Origin: an uncultured Ruminococcus sp.
GTDB lineage: Bacteria; Bacillota; Clostridia; Oscillospirales; Ruminococcaceae
Direction: 5' to 3'
DNA length: 9,300 nt
NCBI GenBank assembly: GCA_902783235.1
Contig: CACZQG010000298.1
Location: forward strand, 1 to 9,300
Within the stretch, counting starts at the first letter, position 1, and every line of letters starts with the position of its first letter. Shown piece after piece: positions 1 to 9,300 of this stretch. Made by a program: the position numbers and the translations under genes. The notes beneath the pieces were generated by a model. It saw nothing but the letters and a program-made list of their open reading frames with translations. It ran no database searches and had not been told where the DNA came from.

Positions 1-1
1 G

Positions 2-1114
2 CTTATGCGTTCCTTCAAGCCCGACTGCATCATCGCTCTGGGTGGCGGTTCGGCAATGGACGCAGGCAAGATCATGTGGGTACTTTATGAGCACCCCGAA
101 GCTGACTTCATGGATATGGCTATGCGTTTCATAGATATCCGCAAGAGAGTATATACATTCCCTAAAATGGGCGAAAAGGCATACTTCATCGCTATCTCCA
201 CTTCCGCAGGTACCGGCTCAGAAGTAACACCCTTCGCAGTTATCACTGATGAACAGTCGGGTGTAAAATATCCTCTTGCCGATTATCAGCTTCTTCCCAA
301 CATGGCTATAGTAGATACAGACTACCACATGAGCGCTCCAAAGGGTCTTACAGCCGCATCGGGTATCGATGCTGTTTCCCACGCTCTTGAAGCTATCGCA
401 TCTGTAATGGCTACAGACTATACAGACGGACTGGCAGTAAAGGCGCTCCAGACAATATTTGAATATCTGCCACGTGCATACGACAACGGACAGAATGACA
501 TTGAAGCCCGTGAAAAAATGGCTAATGCCGCTACAATGGCAGGGATGGCATTTGCAAATGCATTCCTTGGTGTATGCCACTCAATGGCTCACAAGCTGGG
601 CGCATTCCACCATATCCCTCACGGTGTGGCAAACGCTCTCATGCTTGAAGAAGTGCTCAGATTCAACGCTGAGGAAGCACCTGCTAAAATGGGAACATTC
701 TCACAGTACGACCACCCACACACACTTGCCCGTTACGCAATGGTAGCTGATGAATTACAGCTCGGCGGAAGCAATGACAAGGAAAAGCTCCAGAACCTTA
801 TAGATGCAGTTAATGAACTAAAAGTCAAGGTAGGCATAAAGCCTGCCATCAAGGATTACGTTACCAACGAAGCCGACTTCCTTGCACGTCTTGACGATAT
901 GGTGGAACAGGCATTCGATGACCAGTGCACAGGTGCTAACCCCCGTTATCCTCTCATGAGCGAGATAAAACAGATGTACCTGAACGCGTACTACGGCGAA
1001 AAGCACTTCACCGAAGAAAACAAGCCCGGTGTTGTTGATATCCCCGCAGCAGAGGATAAGCACAACTTCAAGAAAGCATATTATAAAACAAGAACAGCCG
1101 CAAAAGTACACTAA
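2..1114 (+). CDS. adhE: Bifunctional acetaldehyde/alcohol dehydrogenase AdhE, C-terminal part (5'-partial)
   Basis: This is the iron-dependent alcohol dehydrogenase domain of AdhE (Aad), which reduces acetyl-CoA through acetaldehyde to ethanol with two NADH in the cytoplasm. The frame is open through the left window edge, so the Met at position 5 is internal; about 370 residues of a family length near 870-890 are visible. Counting from that Met, a GGGS nucleotide-binding turn lies at 13-16, and the likely Fe ligands are D122 and H126 (GIDAVSHALEA), H192 (CHSMAHKLG) and H206 (HIPHG). The signature DDQCTGANPRYPL follows near the C-terminus. The N-terminal CoA-acylating aldehyde dehydrogenase half is outside the window; I infer it because the similarity is to AdhE rather than to single-domain alcohol dehydrogenases. 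The stop codon overlaps the ribosome binding site of the next gene, so this is the upstream part of the hydrogenase operon. In R. albus 7 an aad gene sits in the same transcription unit. No truncation or frameshift is visible. Confidence 0.95.
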   Translation, partial: LMRSFKPDCIIALGGGSAMDAGKIMWVLYEHPEADFMDMAMRFIDIRKRVYTFPKMGEKAYFIAISTSAGTGSEVTPFAVITDEQSGVKYPLADYQLLPNMAIVDTDYHMSAPKGLTAASGIDAVSHALEAIASVMATDYTDGLAVKALQTIFEYLPRAYDNGQNDIEAREKMANAATMAGMAFANAFLGVCHSMAHKLGAFHHIPHGVANALMLEEVLRFNAEEAPAKMGTFSQYDHPHTLARYAMVADELQLGGSNDKEKLQNLIDAVNELKVKVGIKPAIKDYVTNEADFLARLDDMVEQAFDDQCTGANPRYPLMSEIKQMYLNAYYGEKHFTEENKPGVVDIPAAEDKHNFKKAYYKTRTAAKVH

Positions 1115-1126
1115 GGAGGTGCCGTT

Positions 1127-1876
1127 ATGAATCTTGACAGAATTATTGCAGTAAGAAACAACAAGACCGTTTACCGTGACGGTGATAAAGCGCTCAAGGT
1201 TTTTGACAAGAGCTACTCAAAAGCCGATATACTCAACGAAGCACTCAATCAGGCTCGTGTTGAGGAAACAGGGCTCAATATTCCTAAAATACTCGAAGTA
1301 ACCATGACAGAGGGTAAGTGGACTATCGTTTCCGAATACATAAAAGGCAAAACTCTCGCCCAACTTATTTCCGAAGAACCCGATAAGAAAGACGAATATC
1401 TTGAAATGTTCGTTGACTTACAGCTTTCAATGCACGAAAAGACCTGTGCAGGACTTAACAAGCTCAAAGACAAGATGAACAGAAAGATAAGCGAGACAGA
1501 CTTATCAGCTACTGTCCGCTATGATCTGCACACACGCCTGGAAGGTATGCCAAAGCATAACAAGGTGTGTCACGGCGACTTCAACCCTTCAAACATTATC
1601 GTCACAGCCGACGGAACGCCCTATATCCTCGACTGGTCACACGCAACACAGGGCAATGCTTCCGCCGATGCAGCAAGAACATATCTTCTTTTCTGGCTTT
1701 CGGGAGATATTGACGGCGCTGAGAGATATTTAGAGCTGTTCTGTGAAAAGAGCAATACCGCTAAACAGTACGTGCAGAAGTGGATGCCGATAGTTGCCGC
1801 TTCACAGACAGTCAAGGGGAATGAAAAGGAAATCGAGTTTCTCCACACATGGATAAACGTTGTAGATTACGAATAA
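1127..1876 (+). CDS. APH-fold kinase-like protein (putative Ser/Thr or small-molecule kinase)
   Basis: A 249-residue cytoplasmic protein of the aminoglycoside phosphotransferase / choline kinase-like / Ser-Thr kinase superfamily. The catalytic loop HGDFNPSN (149-156; D151 base, N156 metal ligand) is intact, and the metal-binding Asp is D169 in ILDW, the APH-style replacement of DFG. K24 in ALKVF is the likely ATP-contacting lysine, and VSEYIKGKTL (68-77) resembles the hinge. No classical GxGxxG loop is obvious, and no signal peptide or membrane segment is seen. The start is supported by AAGGAGG at 1113-1119. It lies 12 bases after adhE and 13 before the first ferredoxin, so it is cotranscribed. 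The equivalent gene in the R. albus 7 operon was described as a serine/threonine protein kinase. Its position near a PP2C-type phosphatase suggests an antagonistic pair, but that is inference. APH folds also phosphorylate antibiotics, choline and sugars, so the substrate is open. Confidence 0.85.
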   Translation: MNLDRIIAVRNNKTVYRDGDKALKVFDKSYSKADILNEALNQARVEETGLNIPKILEVTMTEGKWTIVSEYIKGKTLAQLISEEPDKKDEYLEMFVDLQLSMHEKTCAGLNKLKDKMNRKISETDLSATVRYDLHTRLEGMPKHNKVCHGDFNPSNIIVTADGTPYILDWSHATQGNASADAARTYLLFWLSGDIDGAERYLELFCEKSNTAKQYVQKWMPIVAASQTVKGNEKEIEFLHTWINVVDYE

Positions 1877-1889
1877 GGAGGGTGACGAT

Positions 1890-2132
1890 ATGAAAGTAAC
1901 TGTATGCATCGGTTCTTCCTGCCACATAAAAGGTTCACGCCAGGTGGTGGAGCAGCTCCAGTACCTTATAAGCGAAAACAGCTTAGGAAACAAGGTGGAG
2001 CTTGCAGGAACATTCTGCATGGGCAAATGCCAGCAGGGTGTCTGTGTTACTGTTGATGATGAATTTTTCTCGGTAACTCCCGATAATGTAAAGGAATTCT
2101 TTGAAGAAAACGTTAGCTCCAAGGTGAATTGA
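1890..2132 (+). CDS. Small thioredoxin-like [2Fe-2S] ferredoxin, copy 1
   Basis: An 80-residue stand-alone [2Fe-2S] ferredoxin with the thioredoxin-like fold of the NuoE/HydC 24-kDa subunit family. The cluster ligands are C6 and C11 (CIGSSC) and C43 and C47 (CMGKC), matching the Cx4C...Cx3C pattern; an extra C52 lies just after. It is much shorter than NuoE because the N-terminal helical region is absent, so it is the cluster domain alone. AAGGAGGG at 1875-1882 supports the start. It is followed one base later by a paralogue with the same cysteine spacing. The probable role is one-electron transfer to or from a partner in this operon, most plausibly HydS just downstream; that is inferred from order only. 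No NADH- or flavin-binding subunit is present in the window, so this is not a complete HydABC-type bifurcating complex. Confidence 0.85.
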   Translation: MKVTVCIGSSCHIKGSRQVVEQLQYLISENSLGNKVELAGTFCMGKCQQGVCVTVDDEFFSVTPDNVKEFFEENVSSKVN

Positions 2133-2133
2133 T

Positions 2134-2397
2134 ATGATCATTCAGATATGTGTAGGTTCTTCCTGTCACCTGAAAGGTTCGGAAAAGATAGTCGAACTTT
2201 TTGGAAAGGTGATAGAAGAACATAAGCTTGAAAACGAGATAACATTAGCCGGAAGCTTCTGCACCGGCAAATGCAACCGTGTGGGTGTTACCATTTCAGT
2301 GGATGATGATGTCTATACAGGCATCACGCCCGAGAATTTCAGCGAATTTTTCAGCGAAAATGTACTTAACGCCCTGAATAAGGAAAGGGAGAGGTAA
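2134..2397 (+). CDS. Small thioredoxin-like [2Fe-2S] ferredoxin, copy 2
   Basis: An 87-residue paralogue of the preceding gene, with the [2Fe-2S] ligands C6, C11 (CVGSSC), C43 and C47 (CTGKC) at identical positions. The two proteins align over nearly their whole length (GSSCHxKGS, LAGxFCxGKC, VDDxxxxxTPxNxxEFFxENV), and 11 bases (GGTTCTTCCTG) are identical at 1910-1920 and 2154-2164, so they arose by tandem duplication. Copy 2 lacks the extra cysteine C52 and has a longer, charged C-terminal tail (NKERER). AAGGTG at 2121-2126, inside the end of copy 1, serves as ribosome binding site, and its stop abuts the ATG of hydS with no spacer, which implies translational coupling. The role is presumably electron transfer near HydS. 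Whether the two copies are redundant, form a heterodimer, or differ in redox potential cannot be read from sequence. Confidence 0.85.
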   Translation: MIIQICVGSSCHLKGSEKIVELFGKVIEEHKLENEITLAGSFCTGKCNRVGVTISVDDDVYTGITPENFSEFFSENVLNALNKERER

Positions 2398-4071
2398 ATG
2401 GAGTGTTTGACACTTAAAAAATCCAACTGTAAAAATTGTTATAAGTGTATCCGTCATTGTCCTGTCAAGTCTATCCGTTTTTCGGGGAATCAGGCTTATA
2501 TAATCGGAAATGAATGCGTTATGTGCGGTCACTGCTTTGTAGTCTGTCCCCAGAATGCCAAACAGATAGTTGATGAAACGGAAAAGGTAAAGGTACTCCT
2601 CCAGAGCGGAGCCCCGGTTGTTGTAAGTCTCGCTCCTTCCTTTATCGCAAACTATGACAGAATCGGCATAAACGCTATGAGAGAGGCTATAAAAAAGCTG
2701 GGATTTTATGATGTAGAAGAAACTGCCATTGGAGCTACTATCATAAAGCGTGAATATGACCGTATATGCCGCGAGGAAGACCGTGACATTATAATTACTT
2801 CCTGCTGTCACTCGGTCAATCTCCTTATACAGAAACACTTCCCGAAGCTTCTCCCCTACTTAGCGGATGTACTCTCACCCATGCAGGCACACTGCAAAAA
2901 TATAAAAGAGCGCATACCAAACGCCAAAACCGTATTTATAGGACCTTGCGTTGCTAAAAAAGACGAAGCCGAACACTATGAGGGCTTTGTTGATGCTGTA
3001 CTTACTTTTGATGAGCTGACAAACTGGTTCAAAACCGAAAATATAATTCCAGAGCAGAAAATGGACAGCGATGAAAACAGCAAGGCTCGTTTTTTCCCGA
3101 CTACGGGCGGCATCCTTAAAACCATGGAACTGAATGTACCAAGGTTCAACTATATAGCCGTGGACGGTATGGAAAACTGCATAGCCTCTCTAAAAGACAT
3201 AGAAGCCGGCAGTATTCATAACTGTTTTATCGAGATGTCCGCTTGTACAGGAAGCTGTGTTGGGGGTCCCGTAATGGAGAAATTCCACCGTTCGCCCATA
3301 AAAGATCATATTTCCGTTGCAAACTACGCAGGAAGCAAAGATTTTCAGGTTGATCAGCCCGACAGCACGCAGCTTCATAAGCCATTTGAGATAATCAGGC
3401 AAAAATCACCTGACCCAAGTGAAACAGAGATACGTGAAACGCTTTACCAGATGGGCAAGACCAAGCCCTCGGATGAACTCAACTGCGGTTCATGCGGCTA
3501 CAACACCTGCCGTGAAAAGGCGATAGCAATTTTACACGGCAAGGCGGAGATATCAATGTGTCTCCCCTTTCTGAAAGAAAAAGCAGAAAATCTGTCCGAC
3601 ATAATCTCACGCAACACACCCAACGGACTTATAGTCCTGAATGAAAAGCTTGAAGTACAGCAGATAAATAAAGCGGCGCTCAAAATAATGAATCTCCGTA
3701 CCCCCTCGGATATACTCGGAGATCAAGTAGTAAGAGTGCTCGACCCAAAAGACTTCCTGACGGTACTTTCAAAAGGATTTGCCCTTCACGGCAAACACGA
3801 ATACCTGGCGGAATACGGGAAATATGTTGAAAAGACTATCATCTATGACAGGGAGTACAAGCTTATCGTCGGCATTCTCCGCGATGTTACCGAGGAGGAA
3901 ACGCAGCGTGAGAAAAAAGAAAGCATCAGCCGTCAGACTGTTGAGATAGCCGACAAGGTAGTGGATAAACAGATGAGGATAGTTCAGGAAATAGCCTCAC
4001 TGCTCGGTGAAACTGCTGCCGAAACAAAGATCGCTCTCACAAAGCTAAAGGAGTCGATAGGCAATGAATAA
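2398..4071 (+). CDS. hydS: HydS: sensory-type [FeFe]-hydrogenase with PAS domain
   Basis: A 557-residue putative H2/redox sensor. Domains in order: a 2x[4Fe-4S] ferredoxin (C11, C14, C17, C21 and C40, C43, C46, C50); the H-cluster domain, about 70-300, with L1 TSCCHSV (134-140), L2 IGPCVAKK (181-188) and L3 EMSACTGSCVGG (279-290), giving cluster ligands C137, C184, C283 and C287; a further [4Fe-4S] motif with C363, C366, C371 and C388; a PAS domain, about 400-500; and a charged helical tail, 500-557. No kinase, methyl-accepting or DNA-binding output domain is present. The canonical motifs differ as in sensory (group C) enzymes: Pro to His after the L1 cysteines, Met to Gly in L2 (G182) and Met to Ser in L3 (S281); the proton-transfer cysteine C136 is kept. 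It starts directly after the second ferredoxin and overlaps the phosphatase gene by 8 bases, which points to that phosphatase as output. R. albus 7 carries the same hydS-hydA2 pair. Function as a sensor is inferred. Confidence 0.93.
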   Translation: MECLTLKKSNCKNCYKCIRHCPVKSIRFSGNQAYIIGNECVMCGHCFVVCPQNAKQIVDETEKVKVLLQSGAPVVVSLAPSFIANYDRIGINAMREAIKKLGFYDVEETAIGATIIKREYDRICREEDRDIIITSCCHSVNLLIQKHFPKLLPYLADVLSPMQAHCKNIKERIPNAKTVFIGPCVAKKDEAEHYEGFVDAVLTFDELTNWFKTENIIPEQKMDSDENSKARFFPTTGGILKTMELNVPRFNYIAVDGMENCIASLKDIEAGSIHNCFIEMSACTGSCVGGPVMEKFHRSPIKDHISVANYAGSKDFQVDQPDSTQLHKPFEIIRQKSPDPSETEIRETLYQMGKTKPSDELNCGSCGYNTCREKAIAILHGKAEISMCLPFLKEKAENLSDIISRNTPNGLIVLNEKLEVQQINKAALKIMNLRTPSDILGDQVVRVLDPKDFLTVLSKGFALHGKHEYLAEYGKYVEKTIIYDREYKLIVGILRDVTEEETQREKKESISRQTVEIADKVVDKQMRIVQEIASLLGETAAETKIALTKLKESIGNE

Positions 4072-5236
4072 TTTGTGTGCCGATATGGGTTACAAAAGTA
4101 TCAATCATTTCGGTGAACAGCTTTGCGGCGATCATGTTGATATCATTGAACAGGACGAGAACTCGTCTGTGATAGTTCTTGCCGACGGACTTGGGAGCGG
4201 AGTTAAAGCAAGTATTCTTTCCACACTCACATCCAAGATAATTTCTACCATGATGGCTGAGGGGCTGAAGCTTGAGGACTGTGTTTCCACTATTGCCGCA
4301 ACGCTTCCGATCTGCTCGGTAAGAGGTGTTGCTTACTCCACCTTTACCATACTTCATCTTATTGACAACGAAACTGTCGAGATAATCCAGTATGATAATC
4401 CTGATGTGATATTTCTGCGTGACAATGAGATATACGATTACCCGAAGCAGGAACTGAATATTGACGGAAAAAAGATGCTCAAATCCACGATAAGTCTCCG
4501 TGAAAATGATATACTGGTGACAATGAGTGACGGATGCCCTCATGCCGGTATCGGAATGGCTTTCAACTTCGGTTGGAAATGGGAAGAAATCGCAGAATTC
4601 ATGAAGGGTATATCCGCTGTGGGATATACCGCTAAAACCCTTGCCACCATGCTTGTGGATCAGTGCAACAAGGAATACGGTCACCGCCCCGGAGATGATG
4701 CGACCGCCTGTGTCATAAAGATAAGAAAGCGTGAACCGATAAACATTCTCTTCGGACCTCCAAGAAACCGTGACGACTGCGACAGGATGATGTCACTTTT
4801 CTTTTCAAAAGAAGGAAAGCACATTATCTGCGGCGGTACAACTTCTTCCATTGCCGCAGCATACCTCGGCAAACCTGTAAAGGCAAGTCTCACTTTTGAA
4901 AGAGGAGATGTTCCGCCGATTGCAGAGATCGAAGGCGTAGATCTGGTGACAGAGGGTGTTATCACCATAAACAAAGTCATTGAGTATGCCAAAGATGTTC
5001 TCGATAAAAATGAATGCTATGAAACATGGAGCTTCAACAGGGACGGTGCATCGCTTATATGTCAGCTTCTGTTTGAGGAAGCCACCGATATAAACTTTTA
5101 TGTAGGCAGAGCCGTTAACCCTGCACATCAGAATCCCGAACTGCCAATCACCTTCAATATCAAAATGAATCTGGTAGAAGAGCTTTCTTCATGCCTGAAA
5201 CAAATGGGAAAGCGTATAAAAGTAAGTTATTTTTGA
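4064..5236 (+). CDS. SpoIIE/PP2C-family protein phosphatase with extra C-terminal domain
   Basis: A 390-residue cytoplasmic Ser/Thr phosphatase of the PPM/SpoIIE family, which removes phosphate from proteins using two metal ions. Metal-binding motifs are ADGLGSG (D41), MSDG (D156) and GDDATA (D211, D212), so the catalytic core spans about residues 5-222 and looks complete. Residues 225-390 form a second region I do not recognise as a named domain; it contains GGTTSSIAAAYLGKP (257-271) and no membrane segment. The ATG lies inside the end of hydS (ATGAATAA arrangement), with AAAGGAG at 4047-4053, so translation is probably coupled and the two proteins likely work together. The R. albus 7 operon has a serine/threonine phosphatase in this role. 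In SpoIIE and RsbU the substrate is an anti-anti-sigma factor, but no STAS or anti-sigma gene is visible here. The substrate is unknown; the kinase-like protein upstream may oppose it. Confidence 0.9.
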   Translation: MNNLCADMGYKSINHFGEQLCGDHVDIIEQDENSSVIVLADGLGSGVKASILSTLTSKIISTMMAEGLKLEDCVSTIAATLPICSVRGVAYSTFTILHLIDNETVEIIQYDNPDVIFLRDNEIYDYPKQELNIDGKKMLKSTISLRENDILVTMSDGCPHAGIGMAFNFGWKWEEIAEFMKGISAVGYTAKTLATMLVDQCNKEYGHRPGDDATACVIKIRKREPINILFGPPRNRDDCDRMMSLFFSKEGKHIICGGTTSSIAAAYLGKPVKASLTFERGDVPPIAEIEGVDLVTEGVITINKVIEYAKDVLDKNECYETWSFNRDGASLICQLLFEEATDINFYVGRAVNPAHQNPELPITFNIKMNLVEELSSCLKQMGKRIKVSYF

Positions 5237-5243
5237 GAGGAGA
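5237..5243 (+). promoter_or_regulatory. Ribosome binding site that fixes the hydA2 start
   Basis: GAGGAGA sits just after the phosphatase stop and a few bases before the ATG at 5248. An in-frame ATG at 5191 would add 19 residues lying wholly inside the phosphatase gene, without a comparable Shine-Dalgarno sequence, so 5248 is the better start. Confidence 0.75.
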
Positions 5244-5247
5244 TATC

Positions 5248-6675
5248 ATGCATAAATTTGATACCAAGGTACAGCATCTGAAATACAAAGTCCTCCGTGA
5301 AGTCGCAAGGCTTGCATGGAATGACCAGCTTCTTGAAAATGTTCTCGATATACCCAAGACTATAGTTCCCGGCAAGACCCCGACCATGCGCTGCTGTGTA
5401 TACAAGGAAAGAGCGATACTCGGCGAACGTGTAAAGCTTGCTATGGGCGGCAATAAGGAAAACTCAAACATTATCGAAGTCATCGAAACAGCCTGCGATG
5501 AATGTCCCATGGGCGGATATGAGGTCACCAACGCCTGTCGCGGCTGTCTTGCACACAGATGCGAGGATGCGTGTAAATTCGGCGCTATATCCTTCGATCG
5601 GGATCATGTAGCGCATATCGACAAGTCTAAATGCCGTGAATGCGGTGCCTGTGCAAAGGTTTGCCCATATACTGCAATAATAAGCAGAAAGCGTCCCTGC
5701 GAGAACGCCTGCAAGATAAAGGCTATCCACATGAATGAAAGCAAAGCCGCCGCCATAGACAACGATAAATGCATATCCTGCGGTGCTTGCGTATATCAGT
5801 GTCCATTCGGTGCTATCATGGATAAGTCCTATATGCTGGACGTTATCGACTTAATAAAAAAGAGTGAACAGAACAAAAAATACAAGGTCTACGCTGTTGT
5901 TGCACCGTCTGTTTCCAGCCAGTTCAGGTATGCAAAGCTCGGGCAGGTCGTAACCGGACTAAAAGAGCTTGGTTTTCATACAGTTGTGGAGGCAGCGCTC
6001 GGTGCTGATATGGTAGCCGATTCTGAGAGCCGCGAGCTTGTGGAAAAGGGTTTTCTCACAAGCTCCTGTTGTCCCGCATTCGTTAGCTATATAGAAAAAA
6101 ATCATCCCGAAATGGTGTCTATGATATCCCATAATCTCTCTCCCATGGCTGCTATAGGCAAATACCTTAAAGAGCACGAACAGGGCTGTAAGGTAGTATT
6201 TATAGGACCTTGCACCGCAAAAAAAGCAGAAGTACAGAAAGAAACAGTAAAGCCCTACGTAGATGTTGCCATGACATTTGAGGAATTACAGGCACTATTT
6301 GATTCCAAAGACATAGATATAACCACACTGCCCGAGAGCGTTCTCGACAATGCCTCCTACTTCGGCAGGATATTCGCCCGTGTCGGCGGTCTTTCCGATG
6401 CTGTAGCACAGGCACTCAAAGAACACGGTGAAACAAACTTCGAGCTGAAAGCTGTATCGTGTGACGGCATAGTTCAGTGTAAAGCGGCGCTCCTCAAAAA
6501 GAGCAAAAACCTGAGCGATTTCAATTTTATTGAAGGCATGGCTTGTATCGGCGGTTGTATCGGCGGTGCAGGATGTCTTACCCACGGCGAAAAAAATAAA
6601 GCTGAAGTGGATAAATACGGCAGAGAAGCAATGGAAAAGACTATAACCGATGCAGTCTCTATGCTTAATGTATGA
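5248..6675 (+). CDS. hydA: HydA2: monomeric [FeFe]-hydrogenase, group B-like
   Basis: A 475-residue cytoplasmic [FeFe]-hydrogenase, probably evolving H2 from reduced ferredoxin. The N-terminal third is rich in cysteine: CDEC (83, 86), CRGC with C105 and C109, a ferredoxin motif C129-C132-C135-C139, C151 and C155, and a second ferredoxin motif C175-C178-C181-C185, together enough for three and possibly four [4Fe-4S] clusters. The H-cluster domain has L1 TSSCCPAF (271-278), L2 IGPCTAKKAE (319-328) and L3 EGMACIGGCIGG (429-440), giving ligands C275, C322, C433 and C437 and proton-transfer cysteine C274. L1 and L3 are near-canonical, unlike HydS, consistent with a working catalyst. The NACRGCLAHRCEDAC segment is what I associate with group B enzymes. 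It lacks NADH- or flavin-binding modules, so it is not bifurcating by itself. It is last in the operon, 11 bases after the phosphatase, and a terminator follows. R. albus 7 HydA2 was reported as ferredoxin-dependent. Confidence 0.93.
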   Translation: MHKFDTKVQHLKYKVLREVARLAWNDQLLENVLDIPKTIVPGKTPTMRCCVYKERAILGERVKLAMGGNKENSNIIEVIETACDECPMGGYEVTNACRGCLAHRCEDACKFGAISFDRDHVAHIDKSKCRECGACAKVCPYTAIISRKRPCENACKIKAIHMNESKAAAIDNDKCISCGACVYQCPFGAIMDKSYMLDVIDLIKKSEQNKKYKVYAVVAPSVSSQFRYAKLGQVVTGLKELGFHTVVEAALGADMVADSESRELVEKGFLTSSCCPAFVSYIEKNHPEMVSMISHNLSPMAAIGKYLKEHEQGCKVVFIGPCTAKKAEVQKETVKPYVDVAMTFEELQALFDSKDIDITTLPESVLDNASYFGRIFARVGGLSDAVAQALKEHGETNFELKAVSCDGIVQCKAALLKKSKNLSDFNFIEGMACIGGCIGGAGCLTHGEKNKAEVDKYGREAMEKTITDAVSMLNV

Positions 6676-6704
6676 TATTACCTTCCTTTTGATAATTGTG
6701 TATA

Positions 6705-6745
6705 AAACAAGAACTGCGGAGAAATCATCTCTGCAGTTTTTGTTT
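6705..6745 (+). terminator. Intrinsic terminator of the adhE-hydS-hydA2 operon
   Basis: AACTGCGGAGA (6712-6722) pairs with TCTCTGCAGTT (6728-6738) around a 5-base AATCA loop, 11 pairs with one G-U. A T-rich tail, TTTGTTT, follows; it can also pair with upstream AAACAA. It begins about 30 bases after the hydA2 stop. Confidence 0.9.
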
Positions 6746-6756
6746 ATGTGATAAAA

Positions 6757-6891
6757 AGCATTCTAAATGACACGGACATGGCAAAGGAAATGATGGAACT
6801 TACGCAGAACAACGTAATTTCACAGGCTGCTCAGTCGATGCTTTCACAGGCTAATACTCAGCCGTAGAACGTATTGCAGCTTTTGCAGTAA
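6757..6891 (+). pseudogene. Flagellin C-terminal remnant with in-frame TAG
   Basis: Reading from 6757 in frame gives SILNDTDMAKEMMELTQNN, then VISQAAQSMLSQANTQP, a TAG stop at 6865-6867, NVLQLLQ and a TAA at 6889-6891. This is the conserved D0 C-terminus of bacterial flagellins (in Bacillus Hag-like proteins: DMAKEM, NNILSQA, AQANQQPQNVLQLL), so the TAG replaces a conserved Gln codon (CAG to TAG). Only about 44 codons remain. Nothing resembling the rest of a flagellin (normally 250 residues or more) lies upstream: the homology stops about 12 bases after the operon terminator. There is no ribosome binding site or usable start. It is a relic left by a deletion or rearrangement and is not a functional gene. 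The match is from recognition of the motif, not from a search. Confidence 0.85.
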
Positions 6892-6917
6892 TCCCAATAT
6901 TAGCCAAATTTCTTTAA

Positions 6918-6946
6918 TTGACGTATTGATTATTTACGCATAATAC
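6918..6946 (+). promoter_or_regulatory. Predicted sigma-A promoter upstream of a structured non-coding stretch
   Basis: TTGACG (6918-6923) and TAATAC (6941-6946) are separated by exactly 17 bases, in an AT-rich setting. Transcription would start near 6952-6954 and run toward the terminator at 7029. No protein-coding gene lies in between. Confidence 0.55.
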
Positions 6947-6952
6947 AAAATT

Positions 6953-7063
6953 GATCTCTCATGGCAATTTGCGACCCTGCAATAAACTGTAATGAGAGAT
7001 TATTGTTATAATTGAATAGAGTAAGCATATGCCGTTGTGGGATATTCCCACAACGGTATTTTT
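6953..7063 (+). ncRNA. Candidate small structured RNA (about 110 nt)
   Basis: The interval is bounded by a well-spaced promoter and a strong intrinsic terminator and has no credible open reading frame. Right at the predicted 5' end, ATCTCTCAT (6954-6962) is the exact complement of ATGAGAGAT (6992-7000), closing a domain that contains a small inner hairpin, TTGC (6969-6972) with GCAA (6979-6982) around GACCCT. An AT-rich single-stranded stretch follows, then the terminator hairpin. This is the layout of a trans-acting small RNA. I do not recognise it as 6S, tmRNA, SRP, RNase P or a known riboswitch. It could also be the orphaned leader of a lost gene. Confidence 0.35.
7029..7063 (+). terminator. 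Strong intrinsic terminator, + strand
   Basis: ATGCCGTTGTGGGA (7029-7042) pairs with TCCCACAACGGTAT (7046-7059) around a 3-base TAT loop, 14 pairs with one G-U, followed by TTTT. No + strand gene ends nearby, so it presumably ends the candidate small RNA or a deleted transcription unit. Confidence 0.85.
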
Positions 7064-7095
7064 ATGAAAAAAATACCGCCCAACGTGTGGGCGGT
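7064..7095 (-). terminator. Intrinsic terminator of the Rpn-family gene
   Basis: ACCGCCCA (7075-7082) pairs with TGGGCGGT (7088-7095) around a 5-base loop. Read on the - strand it is followed by a run of seven T after a short TA, and it begins 6 bases past the stop codon of the - strand gene. Confidence 0.85.
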
Positions 7096-7101
7096 GTAAT
7101 A

Positions 7102-7947
7102 TTAGCTGTTCAAGCCTGTTTTTTCTTTAAATTCCATTTCGGTCATGTTGGCTTTTTTAGCGGCATCGGCTATAGATAAAATACCTTCGTTGACAAGTTC
7201 AGCAAGAATGTTAAGTTTTCCTTCTACTTTACCTTCCGCTTTACCCTCCGACCTTGCGATTGCCATTTCGTTTTCATAATCACGAATAGCTTTATCACGC
7301 TGGCGAATCTGCTCACGGAGTACTGTGTCGGCGTTCAATGCATATACTGCATCAATGCCCTTCTGAATTGCGGGATTTTGTGTTGTTGTTCTTACCATCT
7401 CCAACGCCTCCTCACTATCAGCCTTGATAAGCTTCATCCACATCTGCTTGTTATCGCCGCCGATAAGCTCCTTCGGGACTTTTGGCAGCTCAAATATATG
7501 GATAGACAGCTTATCTGTCAGTTTTTCATGTCGTTTATCTTCAAGAATGGAGTATGACGAATGATAATCGGTGCAACTGAGAAAATTGAAACCGAGGATA
7601 CTCACGGAATAAGTTTGTTCCAAATCTTCATATTTTCCGCCGGATTCAAACTTTTCGCCATAGATTTCGCACCAATAGTATAGTACACGCTCGGCATTAA
7701 AGCCCTTTTTCCTTGCCTGCATTTCTATATTGAATTTTCGGTTTGCCATATTCACATGAATATCCAGTCTGCTCAACTTGCCGTCAGCACTTTCGGGTAT
7801 CAGTTCGGGATTAAGTATTGTTACCTCATCATTCTCCGTAAGCGGCAAATCAAGTACATCACGGAGAAATACCCTTAGAAGATCGGGATTTCTCACAAAC
7901 AACGCCTTGAATACTACATCATGTGAGGCAGAAATTATTTCAGCCAT
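7102..7947 (-). CDS. Rpn-family PD-(D/E)XK nuclease / putative transposase
   Basis: A 281-residue protein of the Rpn family (PD-(D/E)XK nuclease transposase, PDDEXK_2). The N-terminal SASHDVVFKALF (6-17) and the nuclease core with D62 (SRLDIHV) and E75/Q77 (NIEMQ) are the expected D...ExQ variant of the active site. Residues 83-160 hold the family's YYWCEIYGEKF and aromatic segments, and the C-terminus carries three EGK repeats (233-244) and a short helical end. Length is near the family norm, so it looks intact. AAAGGAG lies 9 bases before the ATG and a consensus promoter precedes it. Related E. coli Rpn proteins are DNA endonucleases that stimulate RecA-independent recombination, and many Firmicute genomes carry several dispersed copies. 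The neighbourhood (flagellin relic, truncated helicase) fits a rearranged, accessory region. No terminal inverted repeats or target duplication were found, so autonomous transposition is not supported here. Confidence 0.88.
   Translation of the reverse strand: MAEIISASHDVVFKALFVRNPDLLRVFLRDVLDLPLTENDEVTILNPELIPESADGKLSRLDIHVNMANRKFNIEMQARKKGFNAERVLYYWCEIYGEKFESGGKYEDLEQTYSVSILGFNFLSCTDYHSSYSILEDKRHEKLTDKLSIHIFELPKVPKELIGGDNKQMWMKLIKADSEEALEMVRTTTQNPAIQKGIDAVYALNADTVLREQIRQRDKAIRDYENEMAIARSEGKAEGKVEGKLNILAELVNEGILSIADAAKKANMTEMEFKEKTGLNS
7216..7251 (-). repeat. Three tandem 12-bp repeats coding (S/A/V)EGK
   Basis: Three consecutive 12-base units (7216-7227, 7228-7239, 7240-7251) of the form TTTACCTTCCGC with a few substitutions lie inside the Rpn-family gene and encode SEGK-AEGK-VEGK. 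The unit length is a multiple of three, so copy number can change without a frameshift. Confidence 0.75.
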
Positions 7948-7971
7948 CGGCTACAACTCCTTTACATTTTT

Positions 7972-8000
7972 ATTATAGCACGTTTCTCCCGTACTGTCAA
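7972..8000 (-). promoter_or_regulatory. Consensus sigma-A promoter of the Rpn-family gene
   Basis: On the - strand, TTGACA (7995-8000) and TATAAT (7972-7977) are both perfect consensus hexamers with a 17-base spacer. The -10 lies about 24 bases from the start codon at 7947, with AAAGGAG (7957-7963) between. Confidence 0.9.
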
Positions 8001-8057
8001 GGAAAAACGCTGTAAATATCGTAAAACCAACCGTCCTCATGTCTTCTATACTATTAT

Positions 8058-8064
8058 AAAGGTG
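8058..8064 (+). promoter_or_regulatory. Shine-Dalgarno-like sequence before the truncated helicase frame
   Basis: AAAGGTG lies 5 bases before an ATG at 8070 that is in frame with the helicase remnant, just after an in-frame TAG at 8064-8066. It could allow translation of the remnant, but the match may be accidental. Confidence 0.3.
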
Positions 8065-8069
8065 TAGAA

Positions 8070-9300
8070 ATGGGCACGCCCATATCAAATTCGGTAACAG
8101 AAGCCTACATTATGAACAAATACCTTGACCCATACGGTCTTGCCGAAAAGGATATGAGAAGTTTCGATGCGTGGGCTGCAAATTTTGCCCAGCGTGTCAC
8201 CAAACTTGAATTTGCACCTACGGGCAAGGGTTTTCGTCAAAAAACTCGTATTTCAAAATTCAATAATCTTCCGGAACTAATGCAGATGTTTAAGAAATTT
8301 ACAGACATCAAGATGGCAGAGGATTTAAAACTTCCCGAACCCGAATGTGAACGCCACATTGTTAAAGCCGAGCGTAGTGAGATTCAGGCTGAACTTATGG
8401 AAAGCCTTTCGGAACGTGCGGAAAAGATACACAACAAGCAAGTTACTCCCGATCAGGATAATATGCTCCTTATCACTTCTGACGGAACAAAGATAGGTCT
8501 TGACCCACGCCTTATAAATCCCATGCTTCCCGACTTTGAGGGCAGTAAGGTGAATCTTTGTGTGAACAATGTGCTCGATATATATAATAGTACATCTGAA
8601 AAAAAGCTGACACAAGTTATTTTCTGTGACTACTCTACGCCTAAGTACGGTAAAACTGAGGGCTTTTCCTCGGTCTATGAGGATATTAAGCAAAAGCTGA
8701 TAAGCAAGGGTGTTCACGAAAATGAGATAGCATTTATTCATGACTGCAAGAACGATAAGCAGAAACAGCAGTTGTTCGATAAGGTAAAATCAGGCGATGT
8801 TCGTGTTATCATTGGTTCTACTCAAAAGATGGGTGCAGGTACTAACATTCAAGACCGCCTGTATGCTATGCACCACCTTGATTGTCCGTGGAAGCCCCGT
8901 AATCTGCAGCAGCGCCTTGGAAGAATGAAGCGACAAGGCAACATGAATGAAAAAGTTCATGAGTACATCTATGTTACACAAGACACTTTTGATGCCTACC
9001 GTTTCCAGACTGTTGAGAACAAGCAGGGCTACATAAGTCAGATCATGTCAAACAGCAATCCGTTACGCTCCTGCGAAGATGTTTCAAGCGAAGAAATGGG
9101 ATACGCCGCTGTCAAGGCAGCCTGTGTGGGTAATCCGCTTATCAAGGAAAAAATGGAACTTGATATTGTGGTAAATGAGCTGCAAGTGCTGAAAAAGGGC
9201 TTTATCAATTCACGCTACAAATTGGAGGACGATGTGAACATACATCTGCCTAAAAAAATTACCTCCGCTAAAACATCTTTTGAAAATGGCTTGCAGGATA
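8070..9300 (+). pseudogene. 5'-truncated SNF2-like helicase of a conjugative element or phage (continues past window)
   Basis: An uninterrupted frame runs from 8070 to the right edge (410 codons visible). It starts MGTPISNSVTEAY, equivalent to helicase motif III (normally A/S-T-G-T-P-I-S-N-S), and continues with FDAWAANFAQ, TSDGTKIGLDPRLINP, motif V (VIIGSTQKMGAGTNIQDR) and motif VI (QQRLGRMKRQGN), then FDAYRFQTVENKQGYISQIM. This matches the second helicase lobe of the very large methylase/SNF2-helicase proteins carried by Firmicute integrative conjugative elements and large phages. Everything upstream, including Walker A and the DEAD/H box, is absent: an in-frame TAG at 8064 precedes, and no matching sequence is found earlier in the window. 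It therefore cannot be an ATP-hydrolysing helicase. The remaining frame has no stops, suggesting recent truncation or retained translation. Codon use resembles the rest of the window. Confidence 0.85.

Follow-up and report, generated by a model that had tools for sequence, protein, structure and literature searches.

A Ruminococcus operon that joins adhE and a kinase-like gene to a sensory-type hydrogenase and its phosphatase, and how it may tune ethanol output to H2

The stretch of DNA analysed here (the window) is 9,300 nucleotides from an uncultured Ruminococcus sp. (GenBank assembly GCA_902783235.1, contig CACZQG010000298.1, positions 1 to 9,300) and corresponds to contig C298 of a source assembly (G000) of 2.12 Mb in 415 contigs that is 88% complete. 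Its + strand carries, in order, the 3′ part of adhE, a gene for an APH-fold phosphotransferase, two ferredoxin genes, hydS (a sensory-type [FeFe] hydrogenase), a PP2C phosphatase gene and hydA2. A preliminary description made from the sequence alone had named and placed these genes in the same way, and open reading frames together with Pfam and TIGR matches bear this out. The features are as follows.

2..1114, + strand: 3′ part of adhE (bifunctional acetaldehyde/alcohol dehydrogenase); NF010378, 535.9 bits, residues 1-334
1127..1876, + strand: APH-fold phosphotransferase ("AdhE-linked kinase"), 249 aa; PF01636 51.4 bits, RIO1 34.6 bits
1890..2132, + strand: thioredoxin-like [2Fe-2S] ferredoxin 1; PF01257
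2134..2397, + strand: thioredoxin-like [2Fe-2S] ferredoxin 2; PF01257
2398..4071, + strand: HydS, sensory-type [FeFe] hydrogenase with a probable PAS domain; PF02906 175.1 bits, Fer4 motifs, FeS PF04060, PAS_9
3619..3894, + strand: PAS region of HydS, residues 408-499; PAS_9 20.5 bits, E 0.00061, under the curated cut-off of 27
3928..4062, + strand: residues 511-555 of HydS, a conserved segment at its C-terminus; column identity averages 0.756 in 81 sequences
4064..5236, + strand: SpoIIE-type PP2C phosphatase; PF07228 51.1 bits
4736-5233, + strand: additional C-terminal region of the PP2C, about residues 225-390; conserved, no Pfam match
5248..6675, + strand: HydA2, ferredoxin-type [FeFe] hydrogenase of TIGR04105 (B1) type; 566.8 bits, cut-off 450
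7029..7059, + strand: likely terminator of the unit, a 14-pair stem followed by a T run

The adhE frame is open at the start of the window, which is also the start of the contig; the 5′ part of the gene lies beyond the contig end, and the NF010378 score of the fragment is below the full-length cut-off. HydA2 probably starts at 5248 rather than 5191, because the TIGR04105 match opens at residue 23 of the longer frame; with this start the intergenic spacings are 12, 13, 1, 0, -8 and 11 bases. The site at 7029-7059 is the only terminator-like one listed on the + strand within 900-7100, and promoter-like sites are no commoner than chance (8 found, shuffle mean 10.7). Given the near-contiguous genes, the lone strong terminator-like site and the chance level of promoter-like sites, adhE to hydA2 likely form one transcript, which is as far as the cotranscription claimed in the preliminary description can be carried. 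The window has no Rfam match.

The unit is of a known kind, and the proposal that HydS senses H2, on which the preliminary description drew, was already in print for Ruminococcus albus (PMC6776011; Zheng 2014 as quoted) and for the hfs operon of Thermoanaerobacterium saccharolyticum. By description, R. albus 7 has an eight-gene cluster like that of the window, with adhE, a ferredoxin-only hydrogenase, a PAS sensory hydrogenase and a putative Ser/Thr phosphatase; this cluster (adhE, HydA2, HydS, phosphatase) was 111-fold down in co-culture with a H2 consumer (PMC6776011). The window's HydA2 passes the B1 model; Greening 2019 assigns the R. albus ferredoxin-only hydrogenase to group A1. The passages of Greening 2019 on this cluster make no mention of a kinase. 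In the published passages covered here the kinase gene appears only as an entry in an expression table and possibly also as the "adjacent Ser/Thr protein kinase" of Zheng 2014, which, as quoted in PMC5707799, may be the APH gene. In Clostridium thermocellum the region Cthe_0422-0432, whose genes drop together under furfural and are among the most down-regulated there (PMC3848806), resembles the window in its run of adhE (0423), aminoglycoside phosphotransferase (0424), hypothetical (0425), Fe-S (0426) and SpoIIE (0427) genes, an order from which Cthe_0426 is presumed to be HydS and Cthe_0425 a ferredoxin. Unlike the window, this unit is headed by a Rex gene (0422), and its downstream genes (NADH dehydrogenase 24 kDa-type and Fe-only hydrogenase) look like the bifurcating HydABC type rather than HydA2. 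One surveyed locus (L152) shows the Cthe_0422-0432 order. In print the sensor hypothesis dates from 2014, and the published passages covered here describe no output target; the ethanol-versus-H2 choice of fermenters decides both the precursors of rumen methane and the yields of cellulosic ethanol strains.

What a survey of related loci adds is a division of the operon into two modules. The wide survey covered 291 genomes of the Clostridia (the class of the window), and a close set consisted of the best 80 of 565 confirmed HydS loci. HydS matched in 92 of the 291 genomes at E <= 1e-60; 11 of these, with a partial or divergent HydS, were set aside (two of them, G144 and G244, carry PP2C), leaving 81 HydS genomes. 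From 101 listed matches, 80 HydS stretches were annotated, two matches (in G040) sharing one stretch.

PP2C lies directly behind HydS in 79 of these 80 loci (four of the PP2C genes being below full length) and in the remaining one (L189) it is found on the contig of HydS at a distance of about 15 kb; a ferredoxin gene directly precedes HydS in 71. PP2C adjoins HydS in 76 of the 80 close loci as well. Among the four misses, the contig of L073 ends with HydS; L034, L062 and L075 have the order Rex-ferredoxin-HydS-HydA, with PP2C elsewhere in the genome (a partial match in that of L034). By genome, a PP2C ortholog accompanies HydS in 80 of 81, and the 81st (G062) shows the first 88 PP2C codons at a contig edge; PP2C without a full HydS was found in 3 genomes, two of which have a divergent HydS. 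Where HydS matches span most of the query (frames of up to 615 residues), no fusion of HydS with PP2C was noted; longer frames, of up to 919 residues, belong to partial, divergent matches. HydS and PP2C are thus a near-obligate pair and form one unit by co-occurrence, and PP2C as the partner of HydS is strongly supported. The partnership proposed in the preliminary description, which was to fall if hydS occurred routinely without the phosphatase, is not refuted by these counts.

The kinase gene behaves differently. An APH profile matched in 69 of the 291 genomes at E <= 1e-25, and 66 genomes exceed 240 bits; those below this score (G049, G136 and G242) were left out, and so was one of 76 APH rows, in which a split gene of G039 appeared a second time. 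At 59 of the 70 strong APH places adhE lies directly upstream on the same strand, with a median gap of 18 bases between matches. At 41 of these 59 places no HydS lies behind. The 59 places represent 57 genomes in 24 family groups, and 32 of these genomes, from 16 groups, lack HydS altogether. The other 11 places comprise five with HydS behind and no listed adhE upstream, in one of which (G008) the end of adhE is visible at the contig edge, and six with neither. Seen from AdhE (145 matches at E <= 1e-200), the APH gene follows 59 of the 82 copies with at least 74% identity to the query, none of the 14 at 60-73% and none of the 49 below 60% (0 of 63 together). Locus L176 has the order Rex-Fd-HydS-PP2C-HydA-adhE-APH (Fd, ferredoxin); there, therefore, the kinase stays with adhE.

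HydS and the kinase are accordingly separable: 33 of the 66 APH genomes have no HydS from the 81-genome list, and 48 of the 81 genomes with HydS lack an APH ortholog over 240 bits. The full count is 33 genomes with both, 33 with APH only, 48 with HydS only and 177 with neither, so that APH and HydS co-occur above expectation (odds ratio 3.7, uncorrected for kinship); for APH and PP2C it is 32 with both, 51 with PP2C only, 34 with APH only and 174 with neither. The kinase and phosphatase genes are not present and lost together, as those of a dedicated pair would be, and the preliminary description's kinase as dedicated antagonist of the phosphatase does not survive these counts; a weaker form of its kinase-HydS link survives in the above-expectation co-occurrence, in the APH gene carried by 57 of the 80 close HydS loci and in the five places just named. 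The joint absence of APH and PP2C from L034, L062 and L075, where Rex is present, had been considered a sign of antagonism and was dropped when PP2C was found elsewhere in those genomes; the same genomes gave no APH match. A sample of 348 genomes from the phylum gave 10 APH matches at E <= 1e-30, with one strong match outside the class (G505, 354 bits). In a quickly built tree of 67 APH sequences, linkage to HydS takes 11 changes, so that the joining or parting of APH and HydS probably occurred more than once; many branches of the trees are weak, and they bear coarse statements only. By its gene neighbourhoods the kinase would belong first to adhE and is here re-assigned to it from the HydS circuit, a joint target with PP2C being possible.

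Several loci show further arrangements of the same genes. L219 and L229 read adhE-APH-hydA, with a TIGR04105-like hydA and no hydS; in L234 APH overlaps a TIGR04105-like hydA by 1 base, with neither adhE nor hydS; and in L244 (about 6455-9243) a paralogue of the APH gene, away from adhE, immediately follows a gene that by eye resembles glycogen branching enzyme. At some HydS-linked loci (L117-L119, L121, L122 and L124) AdhE is 896-905 residues long, and its C-terminal tail exceeds that of most copies; a few unlinked copies are also longer.

The source genome holds a second whole run, adhE-APH-Fd-Fd-HydS-PP2C-HydA, on contig C200 (L122), with adhE complete and HydS 94% identical to that of the window; true duplication, strain mixture and mis-binning are alike possible. 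HydS occurs in 5 of the 11 genomes of the window's genus, its own included. The four other same-genus HydS proteins are 55-59% identical to the window's and lie in ferredoxin-HydS-PP2C runs, with no APH in the fetched stretches, and HydS proteins from other families (L117, L118 and L119) are 79-80% identical and group with the window's two copies. Sequence relationships of this kind suggest that the composite operon likely arrived horizontally; a wrongly binned window contig is also possible.

In an alignment of the window's HydS with 80 survey sequences, C137, C184, C283 and C287, which we take by motif to correspond to the CpI ligands of the H-cluster, are invariant in 81 of 81. Mapped by motif, the positions of CpI M353 and M497 are altered (G182 and S281 in the window), and that of the proton-relay residue C299 keeps a cysteine (Cys136; Cys in 61 of 81). 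Altered second-sphere residues at CpI C299, M353 and M497 are a mark of sensory hydrogenases (PMC10055695). TmHydS of Thermotoga maritima is a PAS-containing hydrogenase, as the window's HydS probably is, with small or polar residues at the M353 and M497 positions as in the window; it differs in having Ala at the proton-relay position (PMC10055695). The four cysteines of the neighbouring ferredoxins are retained in 80 of 80 FD2-type sequences counted, and the FD1-type motif C-x4-C...C-x3-C in 138 of 138.

The preliminary description had HydS without an output domain. This is doubtful: a PAS region, with a PAS_9 match below cut-off, lies at the expected position C-terminal to the H domain, and the C-terminal segment is better conserved than the catalytic domain: across the 81 sequences mean column identity is 0.756 for residues 511-555, against 0.546 for the H domain, with 0.749 for the FeS region, 0.684 for the Fer4 region, 0.508 for the PAS region and 0.587 for the whole protein. 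Single 45-residue spans at 10-11 and 357-360 lie marginally above the segment (0.76-0.77). The segment may form a helical hairpin and is a candidate output or PP2C-docking element.

The phosphatase keeps the conserved (metal-binding) aspartates and has the PP2C fold, and its model matches SpoIIE-type phosphatases in both sequence and fold. The additional C-terminal region (about 165 residues) has no solved relative that stands out in searches that were swamped by PP2C-domain matches. Directly behind PP2C, or behind PP2C-adhE, 11 of the 80 survey loci (L160-L163, L167, L169-L173 and L175) carry a protein of about 520 aa; the one member scanned gave a weak match to a Cas12f1-like TNB domain (21.6 bits, cut-off 26.3), and the gene is possibly a TnpB-like mobile one.

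The kinase has the APH-type catalytic set (Lys, Glu, the Asp and Asn of HGDxxxxN, and a second Asp): K24, E38, N156 and D169 are invariant in 40 sequences, and D151 is kept in at least 90%. RIO1 (PF01163) scores 34.6 bits, above its cut-off of 22, over residues 128-175 only; Pkinase (PF00069), at 27.3 bits, falls short of 31.7; among the weak sequence hits are Bud32 (E 9.4e-6) and, at E 0.0018 or worse, protein kinases. The 50 best structural matches of the kinase model are known or putative small-molecule kinases, with no protein kinase among them. As to a substrate in AdhE, no alignment column reached at least 90% in kinase-linked and at most 35% in unlinked AdhE sequences, as would be expected of a candidate phosphosite. 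Apparent AdhE fusions in G253, G172 and G150 (frames of 1144-1198 residues) have a stop inside the match and were taken as read-over. No study of an AdhE kinase or of AdhE phosphorylation in these bacteria surfaced in the literature searches, the passages of PMC11365378 included.

Taken together, these observations suggest two modules on one likely transcript, adhE with a kinase that would serve AdhE, and ferredoxins-HydS-PP2C-HydA2, in which HydS likely senses H2 and would switch PP2C, a reading on which our judgement is evenly balanced. H2, together with the redox state of the thioredoxin-like ferredoxins, would determine which state the HydS H-cluster takes; from there the signal would travel by way of the FeS and PAS regions and reach the C-terminal segment, where docking and activity of PP2C would be set; PP2C would then take phosphate off a target, either on the AdhE side or a remote regulator. 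The kinase would act for AdhE, on the enzyme itself or on a surrounding metabolite. Transcription would be under predicted control by Rex (NADH/NAD+), and HydS-PP2C would add a second, post-translational layer. H2 would likely tune ethanol output through two joined modules and not through one dedicated kinase-phosphatase pair. The survey thus splits the earlier hypothesis into two questions, the effect of HydS on PP2C and the phosphorylation target of the adhE-linked kinase; a target shared by kinase and PP2C would, if true, be the most interesting point.

The hfs operon of T. saccharolyticum offers a partial parallel. As in the window, its HfsB shares the HydS sensory domain, HfsC resembles serine phosphatases and HfsD is HydA2-like (PMC11837493); unlike in the window, adhE (Tsac_0416) and hfsABCD (Tsac_1550) are separate loci (PMC5886521), and no APH gene is described for hfsABCD in the passages covered, so that deletion phenotypes may differ from the window's. 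Deleting hfsA or hfsB (the latter called a HydS homolog) raised ethanol yield about 1.8-fold, and a rise in NADH-ADH (alcohol dehydrogenase) without NADH-ALDH (aldehyde dehydrogenase) activity led the authors to suggest a possible post-transcriptional layer; without hfsC or hfsD, flux was diverted to lactate, and removing the entire operon failed to reproduce the hfsB effect (PMC5707799). Some evidence weighs against the two-module reading. In T. thermosaccharolyticum, expression of hfsD alone, with hydAB and nfnAB, is reported to suffice for more ethanol (PMC11837493, from 2025), which speaks against HydS and PP2C being needed for that phenotype; and the APH gene is present in 57 of the best 80 HydS loci.

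Among the alternatives, the Rex operator predicted in front of adhE has to be taken seriously as a source of H2-dependent transcription. High H2 would raise NADH and release Rex from its operator, adhE to hydA2 would be transcribed, and HydS-PP2C would add little. With the Rex consensus as given in PMC8457756, 46 of the 77 adhE upstream regions in the fetched loci hold a palindrome that matches at least 12 of 14 positions (mean best score 9.6 in first-order Markov resampled sequences, 30 per region). One such site, TTGTTATAATATTAACAA, with one mismatch, stands before the second-copy adhE (L122:1395-1412) in the same genome as the window; that genome also has one Rex-type match outside the window. 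T. saccharolyticum has predicted Rex sites before adhE and hfsABCD, and its rex deletion raised adhE ten- to twelve-fold (PMC5886521). From the operators alone, Rex could make adhE and its neighbours H2-responsive through NADH. As the main source of the H2 dependence we nevertheless think Rex unlikely, if well worth keeping in view: it leaves the near-perfect co-occurrence of HydS and PP2C unexplained, as well as the hfs deletion phenotypes, and high-ethanol strains had raised rex expression, contrary to expectation (PMC5707799). The window itself, which begins inside adhE, has no Rex-like site above chance.

An equally tentative alternative is that the substrate of the kinase is a small molecule linked to the metabolism of aldehydes or alcohols, and that kinase and phosphatase are unrelated in function. 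The fold neighbours of the kinase agree with this; set against it are the RIO1 match above cut-off and the fact that, in 54 loci inspected by eye, no pathway gene besides adhE recurs beside the kinase. APH-fold proteins that act on proteins also exist.

Partner switching is doubtful. Here the PP2C, being like SpoIIE and RsbU, would dephosphorylate a remote STAS protein, and a sigma factor held by a GHKL anti-sigma kinase would thereby be set free. The preliminary description observed correctly that no substrate is encoded in the window; STAS, HATPase_c_2 and Rex-type matches lie elsewhere in the genome. The SpoIIE type of the PP2C, in sequence and fold, suits this reading, as do 6 STAS and 10 HATPase_c_2 matches (7 above cut-off) in the genome, on shared contigs (C42, C277 and C383). 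Against it, such STAS/GHKL pairs are common in genomes of this kind, in sporulation and stress. Among the families of neighbours that three or more of the 80 loci have in common, read by eye with four (c0, c1, c2 and c4) scanned against Pfam and rarer neighbours unscanned, no STAS or GHKL protein was recognised; a SpoIIAB-like GHKL kinase, expected beside HydS in loci that lack APH, was likewise not recognised in these families.

Similarly improbable is a dedicated Clostridia AdhE kinase, the 249-residue APH-fold enzyme encoded behind adhE, that would phosphorylate AdhE (or act on its spirosome state) and gate ethanol formation. To this pair certain lineages would have added an H2-sensing hydrogenase with its own phosphatase, through joining that happened repeatedly or through horizontal transfer, and ethanol against H2 would then be switched covalently under H2 control.

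Least likely of all is the circuit of the preliminary description, in which the APH-fold protein would be a protein kinase and the HydS-controlled PP2C its direct opponent on a single phosphoprotein that sets ethanol versus H2. In its favour, APH and HydS co-occur above expectation, 57 of the 80 close HydS loci carry the APH gene, both genes lie on the same likely transcript with catalytic residues kept, RIO1 (an atypical protein-kinase model), Bud32 and protein kinases match as given above, five APH-before-HydS places lack a listed adhE upstream, and Zheng et al. are quoted for signalling to an adjacent Ser/Thr kinase (PMC5707799), against which stand the separate distributions of APH and HydS, the APH-less loci of the same genus and the small-molecule kinases among the fold neighbours.

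On the 3′ side of the operon lie a gene of the Rpn-family nuclease/transposase type (7102-7947, - strand) and an open-ended helicase gene (8070-9299, + strand) with sub-cut-off matches to helicases of defence systems.

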